Below the pieces are notes generated by a model that worked only from the letters and a program-made list of their open reading frames with translations, ran no database searches and was not told where the DNA came from. Shown here piece after piece: positions 17,582-27,630 of a DNA stretch of 64,000 bases; the first letter of the stretch is position 1; every line of letters starts with the position of its first letter. Made by a program: the position numbers and the translations under genes. This stretch comes from Hymenopellis radicata (taxonomy: Eukaryota > Basidiomycota > Agaricomycetes > Agaricales > Physalacriaceae), in assembly GCA_015501595.1 (NCBI GenBank), contig JADNRX010000045.1:62001-126000 (forward strand), given 5' to 3'.

Positions 17582-19325
17582 TTACTGGTACCAATCGGGT
17601 ACATACATAGGTTCATCAAGAACAATCTGCAAGAGGTCATACACATAGGCGGCAACAAGAGGTATTAGCTCATCATATTCCATCACCATATGCCACCATT
17701 CTATGGGCGTCTTCGCGCGCCCCTTCAAAGCCGGGTAGAGCTTCCACACAGCAAGCATCATCAGAGTTCGACGTTCGACCAACGAGGGAGCTGTGCACCA
17801 CATAAGCACGTGCAGTTCATCCTCCGTGTCGTCACCACACAACCGGCATAACCTCCAATGTCTCGGTACGCCCTGTGCAAATGCTACCGGGCGAGGCAGC
17901 CATTTTGCGGCTTCGACACCCAGAGTGTGGGAGCCTGTCATGAGTCTGGTTAACGCGACACGATGCGCGGGAATACGCGTGAGGAGGTAGGAGCGAAACA
18001 CCAGAGCGTGGCTTGATACCTTCCCACCTTTACCACCCTGCCGCCGCCCAACAAGCATTGGCAGCCGCTGCTGACCTATCTGGTCAGACACCCAGCGCTC
18101 CGCCGCTACCCTCACCCCCGCCACCAAGCTGTCAATTCCCGCTACCGAGGATAATGCCTCCCCCCAATCCAGGGGCGGCACAACGCCAACTCGCAAAAGA
18201 ACATGTACCACATCACTGAGCCAACCCGGCTTACCCGCCCTCCATAACGCCACATACGCGGACAGGCATCTTGTCACCAGCCGAGCATCCGGCAGTTGCC
18301 AGAGACCTCGCAAGAATCGCAAAGGCCTGCTGATGCGCGTAAAGCGGAGGGGCACAATCCCAGTCTCTGAGTAAAGAATAGCAATTCTTGACCGGTCATG
18401 AAGGTGTAGGACGCGCCGGAGGAAGTAAACTTCCACGGCCTCCAGTAGCGCCAGATTTGCTGCTCTCAAGTCGATTGCAACTTCGGAGGCATGACTTGCT
18501 ATCCGGGATTTGTAGATCATCAGTGCCTGAGCGGGGGGTAGATCACCGAAATGCTTCTGCAAGCGCAGTGTAACATTTGCTGTTTTACGTGCTGTGACTG
18601 CCTTTGCGGCGTACATCGTTGCGAAGAGTCCTCCCTTCCGCGAGCTGAACGTGGAGCCGAGGTACTTATGTTCATCAACCCATTCAATCGGTTTTCCTTG
18701 GAGATACAGTGTAGGGAGAACCTCGGGAACCACCCCGAAGACCATCGCCTGTTGCGAATCATCAGTGCTCACGCTCAAGCAGTCCATATCAAGCACACCT
18801 TTGTTTTTGGTACATTGACCATAAAACCTTTCCGACTCGCGTAGCTGCCATACTCGTCGAGGTGAGCCACGATGCCATTTGGACCAGACCACATTGCGCC
18901 ATCATCGGCATGCAGAAGGTGATTAATTACAACTCCAGCCATGACGGTATCTTCAGGGTGGGGGGAGATGTATAGGTCGGATGAGACAAAGTTCCACAAC
19001 GTCGGAGAGGACGTGTCGCCAGTAAGAATGCCAATTGTTGTGGCGAATGGTGTCGAGACTTGGGAGCCCAACCGCACTACATAGCTCATAGACCCATATA
19101 GCATGCGCAACCAGTCAAAAATCGGACCCCCGGCGCCCTTCCGATATAGCATGGACCACATCATGCCGTGGTTTGTCCACGGAAACGCATTTGTGAGATC
19201 GGGAAAGACAACATAAAGTGTCTTGTTCTCCGCCATAGCCATTTGAATAGCACACTGTAAAATCCACGGGTTGTTGAGTGCGTTGTAGCCCTTCCGGAAG
19301 CCGTTCTGAGTTTCTGGAATGATCT
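17582..19325 (-). pseudogene. Retrotransposon RT, C-terminal half plus zinc finger
   Basis: It begins inside RT at PETQNGFRKGYNALNNPWIL, next to the 9-bp duplication. RT motifs follow: VVFPDLTNAFPW (motif A), LTGDTSSPTLW (motif B) and LLHADDGAMW (motif C, with HADD instead of YADD). A frame change between about 18780 and 18830 separates it from the thumb/connection region (EWVDEHKYLGSTF). The C-terminus carries a zf-RVT-like Cys/His cluster (CRLCGDDTEDELHVLMWC) and ends at 17582. The frameshift and the lost N-terminal half make it non-functional. Confidence 0.85.
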
Positions 19326-19536
19326 TAGTCTCTTTTAAACAGACGACGATACATGACGATCGCAAGCGATGTATGTATGTAGTCTGTCGATGATCGAAGC
19401 CTTTCGCAGCGCCATTTTTCTGTGATGTCATGTCAAGCACGTGACGCGCTGACGCGTCCTAATTTTGGATCGATCTTGCCTTTTACTATCACTTTCCGCC
19501 TCGTTCGACGTGTTTTCAGGCGCGAAACTCTTCCAA

Positions 19537-22500
19537 ATGTCATTCTTTGAACCACCATCGACTAGACAGAAAAAACAATGGACAAGGATACCCCGACCAG
19601 GCGATGATGGTTGGGAAATTCCGGTGTCAAACCCGCTTCTTACAGATGGGCCATCACAGCATACGCGACCGCGAACCATATCGTCTCCATTCCCTGCACC
19701 ACCACACTTGACATCAACACCTGTCTCTGCTGCCTTGAATCCGCTCCCAACCCCCATCTCCGCGCCAGCCGCCTCTCTGGCATTTCAACATGTCTTTCTC
19801 GATAGTCCTATTGATTATTCTGGACCTGCTCGAAAGCGCCCGCTGACCGCATTTGAGCGTGTTGATATTGTCCTGAAGGAAGTCGCCGAACATTATCGGT
19901 CAATGGCGGACTTCCTTCTGGACTACTTCGTGTTTATCAATCCTCGAAGCAAAGAGCGCGATCCACGGACCACGAAACACATTAGATCTGTCACCCAATT
20001 CTGCCAACGTGGGAAGGCATTTGCGGTTGTCGAGGCTCTTTATCGCCATCCTTGCAGCTTCCCTCGCATCGCTCAGATCACATTCTCGAACGCGACCAGT
20101 CCTTTGATGGGAATGCTGATCCACGTAACATCATGTACGCTCGTATTGCTCTATCCGCCTGGGCAACTCGGCTAGTCGGTCGTCGCGCACATACGGAGAT
20201 CCGTAAACTAGGCGTTGATGAGAAGGACGACAAATCTTTTCGTGTCCATATTCCTGCATCCGCCAACGATCGCACCCGACACTTGCGCGTTCTTGTTCAG
20301 AGACATGAGATGATGGAGTTCACGATGGACGCCCTCATAACACGGCTGAAAAGACGTGCTCCGTTAATCTGGTTTCTGACTGAGGAAATGGCTGGTCCGA
20401 AGAAGAAGGGGGTTATTGTGATACGGAAAACTCGTCCTCATCCGATGGTAAGATCTTTCCCAAGTTACAGGTTGGTTTGTGCTAAATTAAATGATAGATC
20501 CAGGCCGCTGCCATTTGTTCGTTTCTTATCAGTCGGAATCGATTTGCCACGGGATATATGGCGATGCAGATGGGTATCTGGCACTTCGCGTGTAAATCCC
20601 ATATCGATATCAAACGCGTCTACACCCGTCTTGGCTCCAGCGTCAGCGATCATACTGCACGGCTTGCTCTTATTGCGCTTGCTGATTCCGGGCGGAAGGA
20701 GGTTCGCGACACTATCGCTCGCGTCATGGAAGAGTCGGGTTACATTCCCTACTGTCGTATCTTCGACAATGTCCAACAGTACCAACGAGTATACGAGCAT
20801 GGGAGTGGACGACGGAATAAAATGATTACGGGAACAGCAGCGACAGCAGTCTTGATGTCGAACGTAGAGCCTGGTGCTTTTGACGTGCAGGACCATCTTG
20901 ATCGTGTCATGGCCAACGAACGACGCCATCTTACCGTATCATCTCTGTATGATGACATCGACTGGCAACACCTCGATGAGGCTTTAGCTCTCCACTTTGT
21001 CCGCACTCTTGTCGAATTCATTCCCCAGCTCAATCATCTGCAGTCCGATGTCTCCAAGAGCTTTCGTACCACCCTCGCGAAACACCGCATGCCTGACGAT
21101 CATGTTACCATTGTTCAGCCACTCGGAACGAATGCTGAGAAGGAGATAGAAAATGCCGGCATGTATCAGTCGCAGCTTGACTTCGACGCGCAGATGGGTA
21201 TCAAGCCCGAATATGCCGACAAGTCATTGCAGTGGGAGCGAGGCGATGGCGGGTCCTTTGGGACATTCTGTCGTGTCAAGAAGATCATGACAGTGCAGGA
21301 TATCGACCGGTACCTTTCGTTTCGCAATCGAATCTCGACTCCCGAGATCTGGCATTCCCGCGCAACCAATCTGAATACCACCGCGTCAAATCATTATGGA
21401 CCACCAGCATGTGGTGATCCATCATCACTCACACAGAATGCTGCGGCGACATCAATGTATCGACCACCAGACCTGTCGAAATGCGACTTCTATCCCACGT
21501 CTCGGACTATGAGCCTCATCTGGAATGCCCGCGTACTTGATGTGTGGAGTATTCAGCTCGCAAATCATGGCGACATCCTGGAGTACTTCGAATCACAGTC
21601 ACAAGCTGACATCGACGCTATAACGGTCGAGAGCCTGATGGTGCAGGCACGAAGTATGGTCAAGTGCTATGCCAACTCAACCGCTCATCAACAAGCACTC
21701 TCAAAGGAAGACTCGACCTCTGGAGACGACGAGTACAGGATCCCTGCTGGAGATCCTTGGACAGATCATACGTTCGCACGAGAAGGGTTCGATGGTGATC
21801 AGGTACTCGCCAATTCGATTCTCTATCTCCGGGACTTTGGATGGTGGACTGAGATTAGTTACGCGGTGGCCGATGGTGATATTGGACGCGTATACGAGAT
21901 TCTCAAGGTTAGATTTCATTCTGCTTGCTGTAAATGAAACTGAGAATCGTTTAGGCATGGATCTTTGTATTTGCAGGCGCTTCAAACCGAAACTACACGC
22001 AGTACTTCCTCGAAATGTACTGCCTCTTTCAATATGAGGCCTCGACAGAACTGCATGATGCTCTGTTTAACAACTGGCTCATTGCTCTGGCAGGAAAGCT
22101 CCGCGCGCGCATTGAAGGCGATCTCCTTCAAGAGCATTCAAATAAATGGCTCGAAGATTTTGTGCAGGCGCATGGCGGCGATTTTGATAAGGCCTTCTAT
22201 CGAGATAGCATATCCCCAAACGTGCTTTTCTTCCTTCGCTTCAAGGAAGTGTTTGAAGATTCCTTTGATCTCAAGCGCCGAAGCAAGTCTCATACTTCTC
22301 TGCATCTTCGTGTCGAGTACCAGATTCTCTTTAAGATCTTTCGCAAGGAGCAGATTCAACTATTCCGTTCTACTCGCTTTATGGGACACGTTGCCTTCGA
22401 CTTCTTGAATCGTGGATGGCCAAACCTCGGGGAACGAATACCCGACTTTGTCAAGCGAACATCTGCTCATGCAGCCATGGTTCGAAAAATTGAGGAAGCA

Positions 22501-22971
22501 AGAACGATTCATTTAGCGAAGCGGGATACACAACCCAACACTCCACCGTTCTCTTCTACTACCCCCTTCGCTTCTCTGAGCCCTCCATCCGACATCGCAT
22601 CAGCTCTTCATGATTCCATGTCCTACGACCAGTTGCCGTCACCTTTCCTACCTCCTACGATCCCCGGCATATCGACTCTTGATCTTGAAGAAGGCAGCGG
22701 CTCTGAAGGGTCCGTATCGAATTATGAAGATAGAGATGACGAGGAGGAAATGGATAAGAGTGAGGATGAGTTTACAGTGCTTGAGAGTGGATCGGACTTG
22801 GCGCCGGTGCTGGATCCAGAGACGGGCAGGATGTTGGACGACTGGCATTCACAGGAGGAATTCGAGGGAATGTTAAGGGAAGCAGAGAGAGAAGAGGCTG
22901 AGAAAGAAGATGATGAGGAAGCAGAGGATAATGACGAATTCATGTACGATTCAGATGGTGAGGAAGCATAA
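19537..22971 (+). CDS. DUF6589 protein of the nested element
   Basis: A multi-exon gene from ATG 19537 to TAA 22971, roughly 1,050 residues. Characteristic DUF6589 stretches include WHFACKSHIDIKRVYTRLGS, TGTAATAVL, EPGAFDVQDHLDRV, LQPLGTNAEKEIENAG as VQPLGTNAEKEIENAG, WERGDGGSF, NHYGPPACGDPSSLT and DFGWWTEI. After a clear 47-nt intron (21908-21954) come AWIFVFAGASN, NNWLIALAGKL and EGDLLQEHSNKWLEDFV. The C-terminus is Ser/Pro-rich and then strongly acidic (Asp/Glu). Upstream junctions near 20.05 and 20.45-20.55 kb are not fixed. DUF6589 has no known function. Its presence as one of only two genes in a mobilised unit suggests a role in transposition. Confidence 0.85.
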
Positions 22972-22972
22972 T

Positions 22973-25130
22973 TTATGGTCGGCGTCTTGTGGAGCGACGA
23001 AGACCGCTATTCTCGTTAGATACAGTAACAGGAGCTCGATACTGAGAACGATATGTCGCAGCTATCTCAGCGGCAGACAGAACAGGCGCTGACGCACGAC
23101 GTTTGCGAGGAGGTCGTCGCGGTTGATTCGTAGTATCAGCGAGTGGTGCTGGTGGCGTGGCTCGTATGGGAACAAGCTCGTCCTCGCGTATGGGCTCCTC
23201 TTCATATTCTTCGTCTTCTTCATCTTCTTCGTCTTCCAATTCCTTCCGCTTCTTTGCACGTTCCTTCTCCCGTTTACCTTGCGAACGTTGGCGAATAATC
23301 TGTAGCTGTTTATCGTGGACTAGAATGAAGAGGTCGTCGGAGAAGTCGTCGATAAAAGGCCACGCAACAGAGCGTAGAAGATCACAGAGGTGAGAGTGCG
23401 AGGAAAGGAGGAGGAATTGAGCCATGAGAACTTTAAGGGTAGCCTTCGAAAACTCGTATGCTGAACGCGGCTTATGGTGCTTCTGATATCGTTCCGCCTT
23501 CCACATGGTCTGGCTAAATGACACCAGGGACTCCTCAATCATCGTCTGTTCCTTGCGGGAAAGCTTGTACTTCTTCTCGATAGCAGGTGTCGACGGCAAG
23601 GACGGAATGACAAAGTCAAGAATAGACACAACAGGAGTCCAATTCAGCTGTTCCACTTCGTTGCGCTTGTATCGCTTGCAGCAGAGCGAGCAGAATAATG
23701 GTCGATGCGCATGGAAACAATCAAGTTTTGATATGTCTTGTGGCGGGTTCTCGTATGTCGTATTGAGGGAGGCGATGAGGCAGACAGTTTCCGTAAGAAG
23801 AGCGCGCTTCCCCTTCTCCATCGAGTCACCTCCTTAAGGACTGATTGAGTTCACGCGCAGAAGAAAATGAATAAGGAGATTGATTACCCTTCTCGGCATT
23901 AGCAATAACACTCTTTTGTACAATAATTACAGCACGTCCACGTGTGTCTTCATCTCGCCCTGCTCGTCCAGCCTGTTGAACGGCCTGATCCAGCTTGTCA
24001 GGAAATCCAATCGAAACGCTGAGTACAAGACGTCGGGCGTTGATCCCATTCGCAAAGGCCACGGTTGAGATAACAAATTGACAGTAAGGGTCATCGTTCA
24101 GGCGGCGAATAGTATCCTCGTTGTACTCGTCGCTGCAAAGGCTGTGATACATCCGAACACGGCGAAGATGGTCGACGGAATCTGGCTCAAGAGACCAAAG
24201 GTAAACAAAGACACGATAAACGAGTTCCATCGTTGCACAGTGGATAATCGTCTTCTGGCCGCTGTTGATATACGGAAGAAGGTCAGGAAATTCATAGCCG
24301 TTGAGACCGTGGCTTGTGACATGAAGGGAAAGCTGGATGTTTCGACGCTCGTTAGATTTCCTAATGAGATGGAAGTTTCCTTCGATGAAGCCAAGGCTTT
24401 GAAAGACACCGCGGGAGTCATCTCCAGGCTGAAGCGTAGCTGTAATAAGGAAGATGGACGAGTGATGGAGAAGGCGCCCGCGAGTGTAGGACCCAACAGT
24501 CTTGTACATCGGTCGAAATGATGCCCAGTCGCGCATGAGATGTCCTTCTTCGATGCAGTTATAGATCAAATTCGACTGGAAGGTGTCGTCAATGGTGAGT
24601 TTGCGCCATTCATCATCCTGGAAGTGCTCCGGGTCCACACAAATGACGTTCCAAGTCTTGCACTCTATAATTTCGCGAACAAGATCTCGTTGGCGGTCCT
24701 TGCGAATTTCTGTGATGTTCTTGTGTGTGTAGGCGAATGCGGGGATTCCGAGAAGCCCAAGTTCAAGAACCTGAATGATATTAGCAGCGTACTGGTCTAG
24801 ATTTGAGGCACGTACGATATTCGAAGCCAAGCCTTTTGTCGGAGTTACCACCAATCCGACAGGATTCTCTCGTACAATGCCAGCGAATTCCGGATACTCG
24901 AGCGGGTTCTGTGAGATCTCCAGGTGACACAAAGTCGGTATTGCATATAGAGCAGTCTTTCCGCCGCCAGTCTGAAGAATACACGCAAGAAACTCGCCAT
25001 CCAGTATAAGCGGGATACACTCCTTCTGTGTTGCGTTCAACCCGTTCTTCCACTGCGGAACGCGCTTGTTGATGATTTTATCGATGGTTTCGATCCCTAT
25101 CGTGTCTTGAAATCGAGGCGCGACGCTCAT
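22973..25130 (-). CDS. RecQ-like helicase of the nested element
   Basis: A superfamily-2 RecQ-type helicase. From ATG 25130 the first open frame (to 23826) has motif I QTGGGKTALYA, a motif II position reading CIEEGHLM instead of DEAH, motif III LITATL, IHCAT, motif V VAFANGINARRL and motif VI QQAGRAGRDED. A second frame (23821-22973) continues with a Cys-rich patch (CFHAHRPLFCSLCCKR), helices, and an acidic/basic tail ending RRSTRRRP. The two frames are offset by one nucleotide near 23822-23830, so either a small intron or a frameshift lies there. An in-frame ATG at 25223 would lengthen the N-terminus. The likely role is DNA unwinding during transposition; this is inference. Confidence 0.82.
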
Positions 25131-25266
25131 TGTCGCCGCCGGGAACGCGAATAGTGGTGGCGAGAAGTAAGCACGCGAGGATCGCTGATGGGAATAAAGT
25201 TCTATATGCGGACATGACATCATCGATCAACGGCGCTGCACTTGGGGCGCGCTTGAAATAGGACTA

Positions 25267-26886
25267 GAATGATCTCGAGATCAGTCATCCACTGCTGAAC
25301 GCGCCTCTCCGCCAGAAGCGTCATCATCTTCAGAATACAGGACTCCAAGCCAATCAGCCGATAGCTTTCAGCCTTCGTCGCGTCCTTCCCAACCTTCAAG
25401 ATACCAATCAGGACTGTGATCAACCACATACGCGGTGCGCCCCGGAGCTCCAGACAACGATTGAACAGCTGCACCAGCAGCTCATTTGGTATTCGTGTGA
25501 AGACGTGGTAAGTCGTGCGGTCCCAGCCAGCAGCACCAGCCAGATCCTTCATCATGCCCTCCTTCACCGCCTCTATTTCTTCCTCCATTAAAGGTCGCGA
25601 GAAGTGGCGCCCGGTCGTAGTATCTGAAGTCAACCCTGGTATAGCCTCAGACTCTAACAGAGCTTGTGTGAGCGCATCAAAGTCAAACTCGACGGGCATT
25701 GTCTCTGGCATGTTCAAGCGCTCCATACACTCGTGCGCCAGATCCTCCAACGCCACCTCGGGCTCCCGATGTTTTGGATCGGTTATGTCCCGAACCATTG
25801 CCCATAAACTGCCGTCGTTCTTCTTGGCTGCATCGACAAAGTCATTCAGCATATCCCAGCGCTCTTGTCGGTTCGCGCCGCGTCCACCATGAGAGGAGAG
25901 AAAAGAATTAGGGAGCGTGGTACTGTCCTCATCTAGGAGAAAAGTGCTGCTGGATCGCGGGACGGCCACACTTAGCAGCAGACTTGTCATCACCTTCGGT
26001 CCTCCCGACTCAACCTGCACGGCGGACCCTGAGGGCGCGAAGGAAGGTAAGCTGTTGAGGGCAGGCAGTAGGAATGCGATGTCAATCATGGCTCCCTGCC
26101 TTGCCAATGCATCAGCCGCATCATTTCCTGTATCCCCAGAGTGACCCTTCACCCACAAGAACTCTACGCGCGCTGTACGGCGTTGGAGTAGCTCCACACC
26201 ATAGCGAATGAGGTCTGCATTGGCACAGACCCAGCCAGTCTGAGCCAGCCTTGGCGCCCAGTGACAGTACGTGTGGATAACGTTCTCACTGTCCGTATAA
26301 ATCTCCAGCGGCAGATCGGGAGCGGCGGAGAGCAAAGCAATGACAACTGCTAGGTGCTCCGCTCGGTTATTCTTTTGAGGTCCCGACACCCTCGCCGCTA
26401 GATTGCGTGACGCTCCCGGACCCCAGTATACCCCGGCACCAGCCTTCGCATTAGAAGCACCATTATCAAGGCAGCTCCCATCTGTCCATACCCGACGCCT
26501 CTTTCCGTTCCTCATCACGGGGCCATAGAGATCGAGGATAGCGTCTTCGGAAGCAACTGCAGCTGCCACCGTTTCGTGATAGAGAATGTCGAGCTCGTCT
26601 GCACTTGGCGGGACGGGAGCACCAGCAAAGGAAGGGACTGCCGTGTCAGGCAAACCGGGAAACGGACGCTCGAGCTTGCCTCGATACGCACGATATTCCT
26701 TGCGCGGGGGTAGCCTTGACAGGTTTACCGTCGCCTTTGACCTAATCCGTATGGACAGCAAAGCATGGTCGGAACGACCAGGAACATCTACTACCTAATA
26801 AGACATGAATGAGCACAAGCAGGCAATGCTCAGAGAATAATAACCTTGAATTCAATGACTCGGTCAAGGAATCTCTCTGAAAACTA
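25267..26886 (-). pseudogene. Retrotransposon RNase H domain and N-terminal half of RT
   Basis: An open stretch of about 500 codons. After the end of the endonuclease (SDHALLSIRIR) comes a type I RNase H domain: VWTDGSCLDNG (first Asp about residue 93 of the 26761 frame), NNRAEHLAVVIAL, IYTDSENVIH and GNDAADALARQG. Next is the RT fingers region with LVQLFNRCLELRGAPRMW, LIGILKVGKDATKAESYRLI and RRVQQWMTDLEII. The frame then leaves retroelement sequence at the nested insertion (25266). RNase H between endonuclease and RT is not the usual order. Confidence 0.82.
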
Positions 26887-27630
26887 AGCATAGTCAACGA
26901 CTGCATTGCCCATGGGCTGGAAAGATGTCCAAACACCCGGAGACGCGCCATCGTAGCGGGTTCCATTCAGAATGACCATCTCCAGGTCGCGGCACATGTC
27001 CACCAACCAGGTGCCACGGGCGTCGGAGACGAAATCGCATGATTGACGTTTTATGTCCTCCGCCGAAGACAACGCGGCAGTACGAGCATTAATATCACCC
27101 AGACCCAAAACTGGCCGAGGCGAACAAGAGCGCATAGCTAGCAGTGCCTGCAGTCCATCACAAGGATCGTCGTCTAACGTCAACAGCCAGGGTGACCCGC
27201 GTGGAGGGATATATGCAAATACTACGGTGACATCTTCAAAGTCCACCGCCAGATATTCGGAGGTCATCAAGACTTCCGGAATGTCGAGAACGATGGAGGA
27301 GCGATACATGACCGCCAGTCCCCCCATATGACGGCGCATGAGTACAGACACCGGCCTAGGGAAAGAGAGAAAAGTGAAGTCAGACGGAAGCGGAAGAGCC
27401 AGATGTTCGTCCTCCTCCATCCACGTTTCACTAAAAAAGATAACATCATACCCATCCAAAAAACTCATCTCAGGACCACGCAGCAGAAGAGCCAATTCCC
27501 CATGTATATTCCAGCCCAATATAGATAAAACACTATTACTTGATTCAACATTTTCGTCATCTGAACGCACCCCATGCTCACTAGCATCTGAGGTCGCTTC
27601 TGCCGCCTGGGCAGGTGAGTTGTGAATCAA
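26884..27630 (-). pseudogene. Retrotransposon EEP endonuclease
   Basis: An APE-like endonuclease/exonuclease/phosphatase domain: LSILGWNIHG, FFSETWMEE (catalytic Glu), GGLAVMYRS, FAYIPPRGSPW, LGDINAR (the D-x-N pair) and WTSFQPMGNAVVDYA. It then stops at a TAG (26884). The family's final S-D-H motif is found downstream in the next open stretch as GRSDHALLS (about 26770), so the domain is split by a nonsense codon and an intron-like or frame-breaking segment. This enzyme nicks the target for target-primed reverse transcription. Confidence 0.8.

Follow-up and report, generated by a model that had tools for sequence, protein, structure and literature searches.

The window analysed here, a 64,000-nucleotide stretch of a Hymenopellis radicata contig, contains a non-LTR retroelement that is split by a unit carrying two genes, one for a DUF6589 protein and one for a RecQ-like helicase (Table 1). 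The first-pass annotation had described a 9-bp duplication on both sides of this unit and a reverse transcriptase (RT) that returns to frame once the unit is taken away, and both observations stand: the two copies of GAATGATCT are exact, each is followed directly on the inside by TAGTC, and removing 19326-25275 leaves a continuous RT frame of 678 aa. Among the left and right pairs scanned around the element, the GAATGATCT/TAGTC boundaries have the best score. A search for empty sites had also been proposed. Indeed, when the two flanks are joined, the resulting 300 bp align along their whole length (300/300 bp, 84%) with two further sites of the same genome, C576 and C509, and both are copies of the retroelement without the insert. 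They are similar, yet not identical over 3,300 bp, and because of this mutual similarity (their scores are equal) the two uninterrupted sites may not be independent. Since the target-site duplication (TSD), the TAGTC ends, the restored RT frame and the uninterrupted paralogous sites coincide, the insertion in the window is real and precise.

Table 1. Features of the transposon and of the interrupted retroelement, in window coordinates.
Feature	Positions	Strand	Basis
Interrupted non-LTR reverse transcriptase, downstream part	18775..19316	-	profile matches; frame restoration
Left target-site duplication GAATGATCT	19317..19325		sequence
Transposon, 5,941 bp	19326..25266		TSD and TAGTC ends; RT restored; uninterrupted paralogous sites
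A-type outer terminus TAGTCTCTTTTAA	19326..19338	+	genome pattern counts for TAGTCTCTTNTAAACA
Cap palindrome, hairpin-forming, CAGAC...GTCTG	19339..19387	+	fold z -2.22; covariation
Inner TAGTCTG repeat	19380..19403	+	comparison with opposite end
29-nt subterminal inverted repeat, left arm	19406..19434	+	inverted-repeat search
Transposase gene (DUF6589)	19537..22971	+	N-terminal coding part from 19537; introns 20448-20497, 21908-21954
D195 codon (P0002), candidate first catalytic Asp, strand 190-205	20765..20767	+	alignment and predicted structure
DUF6589 (PF20231) match, two exons	20915..22293	+	Pfam profile search
D355 codon, candidate second catalytic Asp, right after strand 350-354	21245..21247	+	alignment and predicted structure
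E635 codon, candidate catalytic Glu, helix 630-648	22132..22134	+	alignment and predicted structure
RecQ-like SF2 helicase gene	22973..25223	-	helicase exon within 23826-25223; C-terminal exon with CxxC region down to 22973
29-nt subterminal inverted repeat, right arm	25211..25239	-	inverted-repeat search
B-type terminus TAGTCCTATTTCAAGCGCGCCCCA	25243..25266	-	end comparison
Right target-site duplication GAATGATCT	25267..25275		sequence
Interrupted retroelement ORF, upstream part (RNase H and RT start)	25276..26761	-	profile matches; frame restoration

The usual order in non-LTR retroelements is RT, then RNase H. In the interrupted retroelement (18775-19316 and 25276-27630, minus strand), the RNase H domain is N-terminal to the RT, and an endonuclease domain lies in the next ORF upstream. 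Its paralogue L056, with the ORF judged by eye, reads through uninterrupted in the same RNase H-then-RT order.

The DUF6589 gene gives one Pfam match to PF20231 in each of two exons (E 6.3e-64 and 9.7e-24). The protein BDZ89DRAFT_1012477 (P0002, 913 aa) is 100% identical to the DUF6589 protein of the window and uses the intron end at 20497; it begins downstream of a change of reading frame near 20060, in the N-terminal part of the gene, which is probably a frameshift particular to the window copy. Because of this frame change, and because DUF6589 relatives have a longer N-terminus (for example P0003, 1,119 aa), the window gene may be a decayed copy. The first-pass annotation had supposed that DUF6589 is, or contains, the recombinase and that a model of it should be checked for an RNase H-like fold, and prediction supports the idea. 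The predicted model shows an RNase H-like core in which a large insertion, mostly helical, precedes the last Glu; when this model is compared with PDB entries, the top 12 rows are all DDE transposases, the closest being Hermes, P element, ISCth4, Transib and Mos1. Three acidic residues, placed as D, D and E, are invariant wherever an alignment row has a letter (D195, 25/25; D355, 26/26; E635, 25/25). By prediction, DUF6589 is a DDE transposase of the RNase H fold, and D195, D355 and E635 form its candidate catalytic triad. Pfam finds no separate transposase among the element ORFs, and a sequence search of the PDB with the transposase alignment gives no match up to E 1. In two protein searches, one with the alignment and one with a distant member as query, every match carries PF20231 and the named sources are fungi; animal relatives are absent from these matches, many of which come without an organism name. 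One of these searches, like the first protein search, scored the best 8000 candidates by common words, so that distant relatives may fall outside. Close relatives are present in Armillaria and Mycena genomes. PF20231 is classed as a family of unknown function, and in many mushroom genomes its proteins are annotated as 'hypothetical protein'. If PF20231 is seen as the transposase of helicase-bearing transposons, these genes can be masked as mobile elements instead of being taken for host genes.

The helicase gene is convergent with the transposase gene, and a single base separates the ends of their reading frames. Pfam recognizes the DEAD (PF00270) and Helicase_C (PF00271) domains. The best NCBIfam models belong to the RecQ family, with scores far under the model cut-offs (TIGR00614, E 2.2e-18, 66 bits, cut-off 219.8), and among solved structures the top rows are mixed, DDX46 standing first (E 6.5e-09) and RecQ next to it (E 7.4e-09). 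A probable intron of 55 or 58 bp starts at 23887; the second exon encodes the C-terminal part, with a CxxC motif common to the neighbours, and in a search that skipped very common words, the DNA of this exon matches nothing in the genome except itself. Among the eight ORFs scanned against Pfam, the five of the element contain no nuclease domain. For helicase motif II, the window (minus strand, near 24545) and copies C491 and C391 have EEGH, and the distant copy C963 has DEAH.

A search for convergent DUF6589/RecQ pairs at other loci had been proposed, and the H. radicata genome contains them in number. Its 75.5 Mb give 88 DUF6589 matches and 44 helicase matches, which manual merging reduces to 45 and 31 loci. 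Of the 31 helicase loci, 30 have DUF6589 on their contig, always in convergent orientation, and in 28 of the 31 the partner lies within 4.5 kb. In the other direction the pairing is less complete: 29 of the 45 DUF6589 loci serve as the nearest partner of one of the listed helicases, and among the remaining 16 are fragments and second pieces of interrupted copies. Some contigs look near-duplicate (C763/C349, C1295/C1342), so that not every locus counts as independent. DUF6589 and the helicase form a recurrent, well-supported two-gene unit.

The ends recur together with the genes. Shared TAGTC termini with duplications had been anticipated for other copies, and this expectation holds in part: TAGTC ends with exact matching duplications are present in 8 of the 15 gene-bearing copies examined at both ends (window, C704, C491, C391, C471, C1295, C627 and C963), whereas the other seven (C958, C714, C763, C349, C993 and both C845 copies) have no clean TSD. 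The duplication of C627 is 10 bp long. C963 belongs to a distant protein clade, at 16-20% identity; this copy is 9.2 kb long, and its TSD at the TAGTC ends measures 9 bp. For C471 and C627, the TAGTC pair was chosen instead of the top pair of the automatic scan, that of C627 from a listing of TAGTC sites; C347 and C1212 were inspected at one end each. With at most one mismatch allowed, the genome contains the terminus pattern TAGTCTCTTNTAAACA 71 times, whereas the reversed pattern, used as a control, occurs 10 times. It has 31 exact matches, 24 of them apart from DUF6589 and helicase matches, and 20 of these 24 were fetched. Of these 20 sites, 14 are elements of 494-510 bp that carry no genes and are flanked by exact duplications, 9 bp long in 12 cases and 10 bp in two; the other six have no clean pair. 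When flanks were swapped between loci as a control, 1 of 380 pairs matched. The duplicated targets, 9 or 10 bp long, vary in sequence between copies. Taken at the level of sequence, the boundaries, the duplications, the gene pairing and the empty sites support DUF6589 and the RecQ-like helicase as one DNA-transposon unit, as had been proposed, and the gene-less copies have its ends in common.

Two further observations concern individual copies. The gene-less copies L066 and L072 have the common target ACCATCATG, which is the one match of the swapped-flank control. At C845:3300-18300 there are two mirror-image copies. GAGTTCTAG lies to the left of one and to the right of its partner, an arrangement suggesting that copies have recombined or that the assembly contains an inversion.

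The two ends of the element are built differently. The first-pass annotation had described inverted ends starting with TAGTC; this motif is indeed present at both, but the exact match is limited to the outermost 5 bases, and a better inverted repeat (29 nt, 83%) is subterminal and displaced by 53 nt at the left end. There, the A-type end consists of TAGTCTCTTNTAAA, followed by a palindrome, CAGAC...GTCTG, and then by a second TAGTCTG. Both ends are known for 22 elements; in 20 of them, the B-type end is closer to the inner than to the outer A repeat (mean 17.2 versus 10.9 of 24), the exceptions being the window copy (inner 10 versus outer 13 of 24) and C963 (9 versus 9). The inner repeat lies 52-59 nt inside in 21 of the 22 and 68 nt inside in C963. 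Because the B-type end prefers the inner A repeat, we regard the better inverted repeat as shifted inwards on one side by a hairpin cap, about 53 bp long.

The palindrome is present at one end only in the window (19339-19387) and at the A-ends L032, L033, L034, L037, L043, most of L060-L078, and L080. It is present in autonomous and in gene-less copies, and in the distant clade it differs in sequence. Covariation was examined in 20 (19 distinct) of 29 aligned A-ends, leaving out duplicate rows (L051, L069), one row close to another (L075), rows with a different, longer palindrome (L038, L080) and rows with a degenerate or no visible palindrome (L063, L067, L078, L079). Pairing-preserving changes on both sides occur in 10 of the 12 inner pairs, 94.3% of the cells over 17 hairpin pairs are paired, and none of 500 shuffles reaches the observed values, several pairs depending on one sequence and kinship alone being able to beat such shuffles. 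When the partners are slid, pairing falls to 9-48%. The outer five pairs have no double change among the 20 A-ends. Single-strand fold z values range from 0.41 to -3.99 for A-ends, strongest in C963 and C845, and from 0.19 to -1.90 for B-ends. A lax hairpin count passes 30 of 31; it was made without a control and one passing row looks unrelated, and it is not relied on. Either selection for a hairpin or cruciform or a template switch in which one arm serves as the copy of its partner could account for the covariation.

The A-type end is also not bound to one gene. It is on the transposase side in the window (C796), C704, C845, C714, C1212 and C963, and on the helicase side in C491, C391, C471, C627, C763 and C349; for C714, C1212, C763 and C349, the side was called from the transposase-side end only. 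C1295 and C993, both outside the tree of these 12 copies, have it on the helicase side too. A single switch between gene sides explains the distribution on the tree and has modest support, the relevant split appearing in 68% of bootstrap trees (68/68).

We propose the following cut-and-paste scheme as the most likely. The DUF6589 transposase would bind both TAGTC ends and cut the element out, the excised element would be joined to target cuts staggered by 9 (sometimes 10) bp, and gap repair would produce the 9-10 bp duplication. The RecQ-like helicase may assist, most plausibly by separating the strands at the ends, where the cap can form a hairpin, or by acting on the gapped products. From their common ends and duplications, we infer that the gene-less copies of about 500 bp are moved in trans. 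The hairpin cap outside the inverted repeat and the gene-side switch of that end go beyond what we have seen in print. The cap, like the link to DUF6589, looks worth following up; it is the feature that specialists might not expect, and together with the helicase pairing it raises the question of why a cut-and-paste transposon carries a RecQ-like helicase. As a tentative and rather doubtful answer, the cap might mark one end as different, and its opening by the helicase might be a required step of transposition. If true, this would be a DDE transposon reaction dependent on a structured, asymmetric end.

AcademH was reportedly described by Kojima in 2020. In their available portions, PMC10045372 and PMC10799480 both cite Kojima 2020 (Mob DNA 11:15) as its source. 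The former gives AcademH TSDs of 9 or 10 bp and a helicase, not a nuclease, and AcademX TSDs of 3 or 4 bp and a nuclease, tying the TSD lengths to helicase and nuclease respectively; the latter describes AcademH as low-copy elements in Basidiomycota, Ascomycota and Mucoromycota. In the available part of the Marasmius oreades genome paper, putative non-autonomous Academ elements are described as widespread in that mushroom. The earlier statement that no known superfamily combines these features thus has to be withdrawn, as AcademH joins a helicase to 9 or 10 bp TSDs (PMC10045372, as far as available). The element fits AcademH in every feature tested: TSDs of 9 or 10 bp (8/15 gene-bearing copies, 14/20 terminus sites), an SF2 helicase (PF00270, PF00271; RecQ-like) paired with DUF6589 genome-wide, no nuclease gene among the five element ORFs by Pfam, and, by prediction, a DDD/E transposase. 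It is very probably an AcademH-type DNA transposon with a DUF6589 DDE transposase and a RecQ-like helicase, a membership that we strongly infer by matching published descriptions. PF20231 is probably the Academ-type transposase, a link that we have not seen in print: a partial literature search found no statement equating the two and no paper mentioning DUF6589, its sole text match for PF20231 being an unrelated optics paper.

That same silence in the partial search, the missing transposon name for DUF6589 in Pfam and a comparison with Academ made by description would also suit a new superfamily, in which a DDE transposase and a RecQ-like helicase, unrelated to Academ transposases, came together convergently with AcademH. 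The fungal hosts, the helicase and both TSD lengths, 9 and 10 bp, agree with the AcademH description in the available parts of its sources, and make a new superfamily improbable. A fungal Kolobok lineage is a still weaker candidate: Kolobok elements duplicate TTAA, whereas here the duplicated targets measure 9-10 bp and differ in sequence. KolobokH does encode a RecQ helicase and, in the available text of PMC9587614, is reported from fungi only, but its helicase is placed downstream of the transposase domain, against a separate, convergent gene on the opposite strand here; one rhodophyte Kolobok has RecQ on the complementary strand (PMC9587614, same portion). We set KolobokH aside as very improbable. 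Gene-less copies demonstrate that these genes need not be in cis for the ends to move, as would be the case if an unrelated transposase moved a non-autonomous or chimeric unit with DUF6589 and the helicase as passengers; yet the gene pair and the ends recur together over a divergent range, including the C963 clade at 16-20% identity, and DUF6589 is itself a predicted DDE transposase, which leaves the passenger reading hardly credible. MULE/MuDR was considered, and PF10551 has no match in the eight ORFs (E 0.001) or in six DUF6589 proteins (E 1). Helitrons make no TSD and encode an HUH/Rep protein; here TSDs are present, and no HUH/Rep Pfam match was found in the ORFs or DUF6589 proteins scanned.

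Among known systems, Hermes (hAT), the P element and Transib/RAG1 resemble the AcademH-type element in having an RNase H core, here predicted, that is interrupted ahead of the last Glu by a large and mostly helical insertion; at 6-10% identity, the relation is at fold level only, and we know of no helicase partner in any of them. AcademX is the sister lineage of AcademH in the same superfamily (PMC10045372, available part) and differs by its 3 or 4 bp TSDs and its nuclease, against 9-10 bp and no nuclease domain in the element here. With AcademH, compared by description, no difference was seen in the available parts of PMC10045372, PMC10799480 and PMC9587614, and the likeness extends to the encoded helicase, the Academ (DDD/E) superfamily, the 9 or 10 bp TSD and the fungal hosts.
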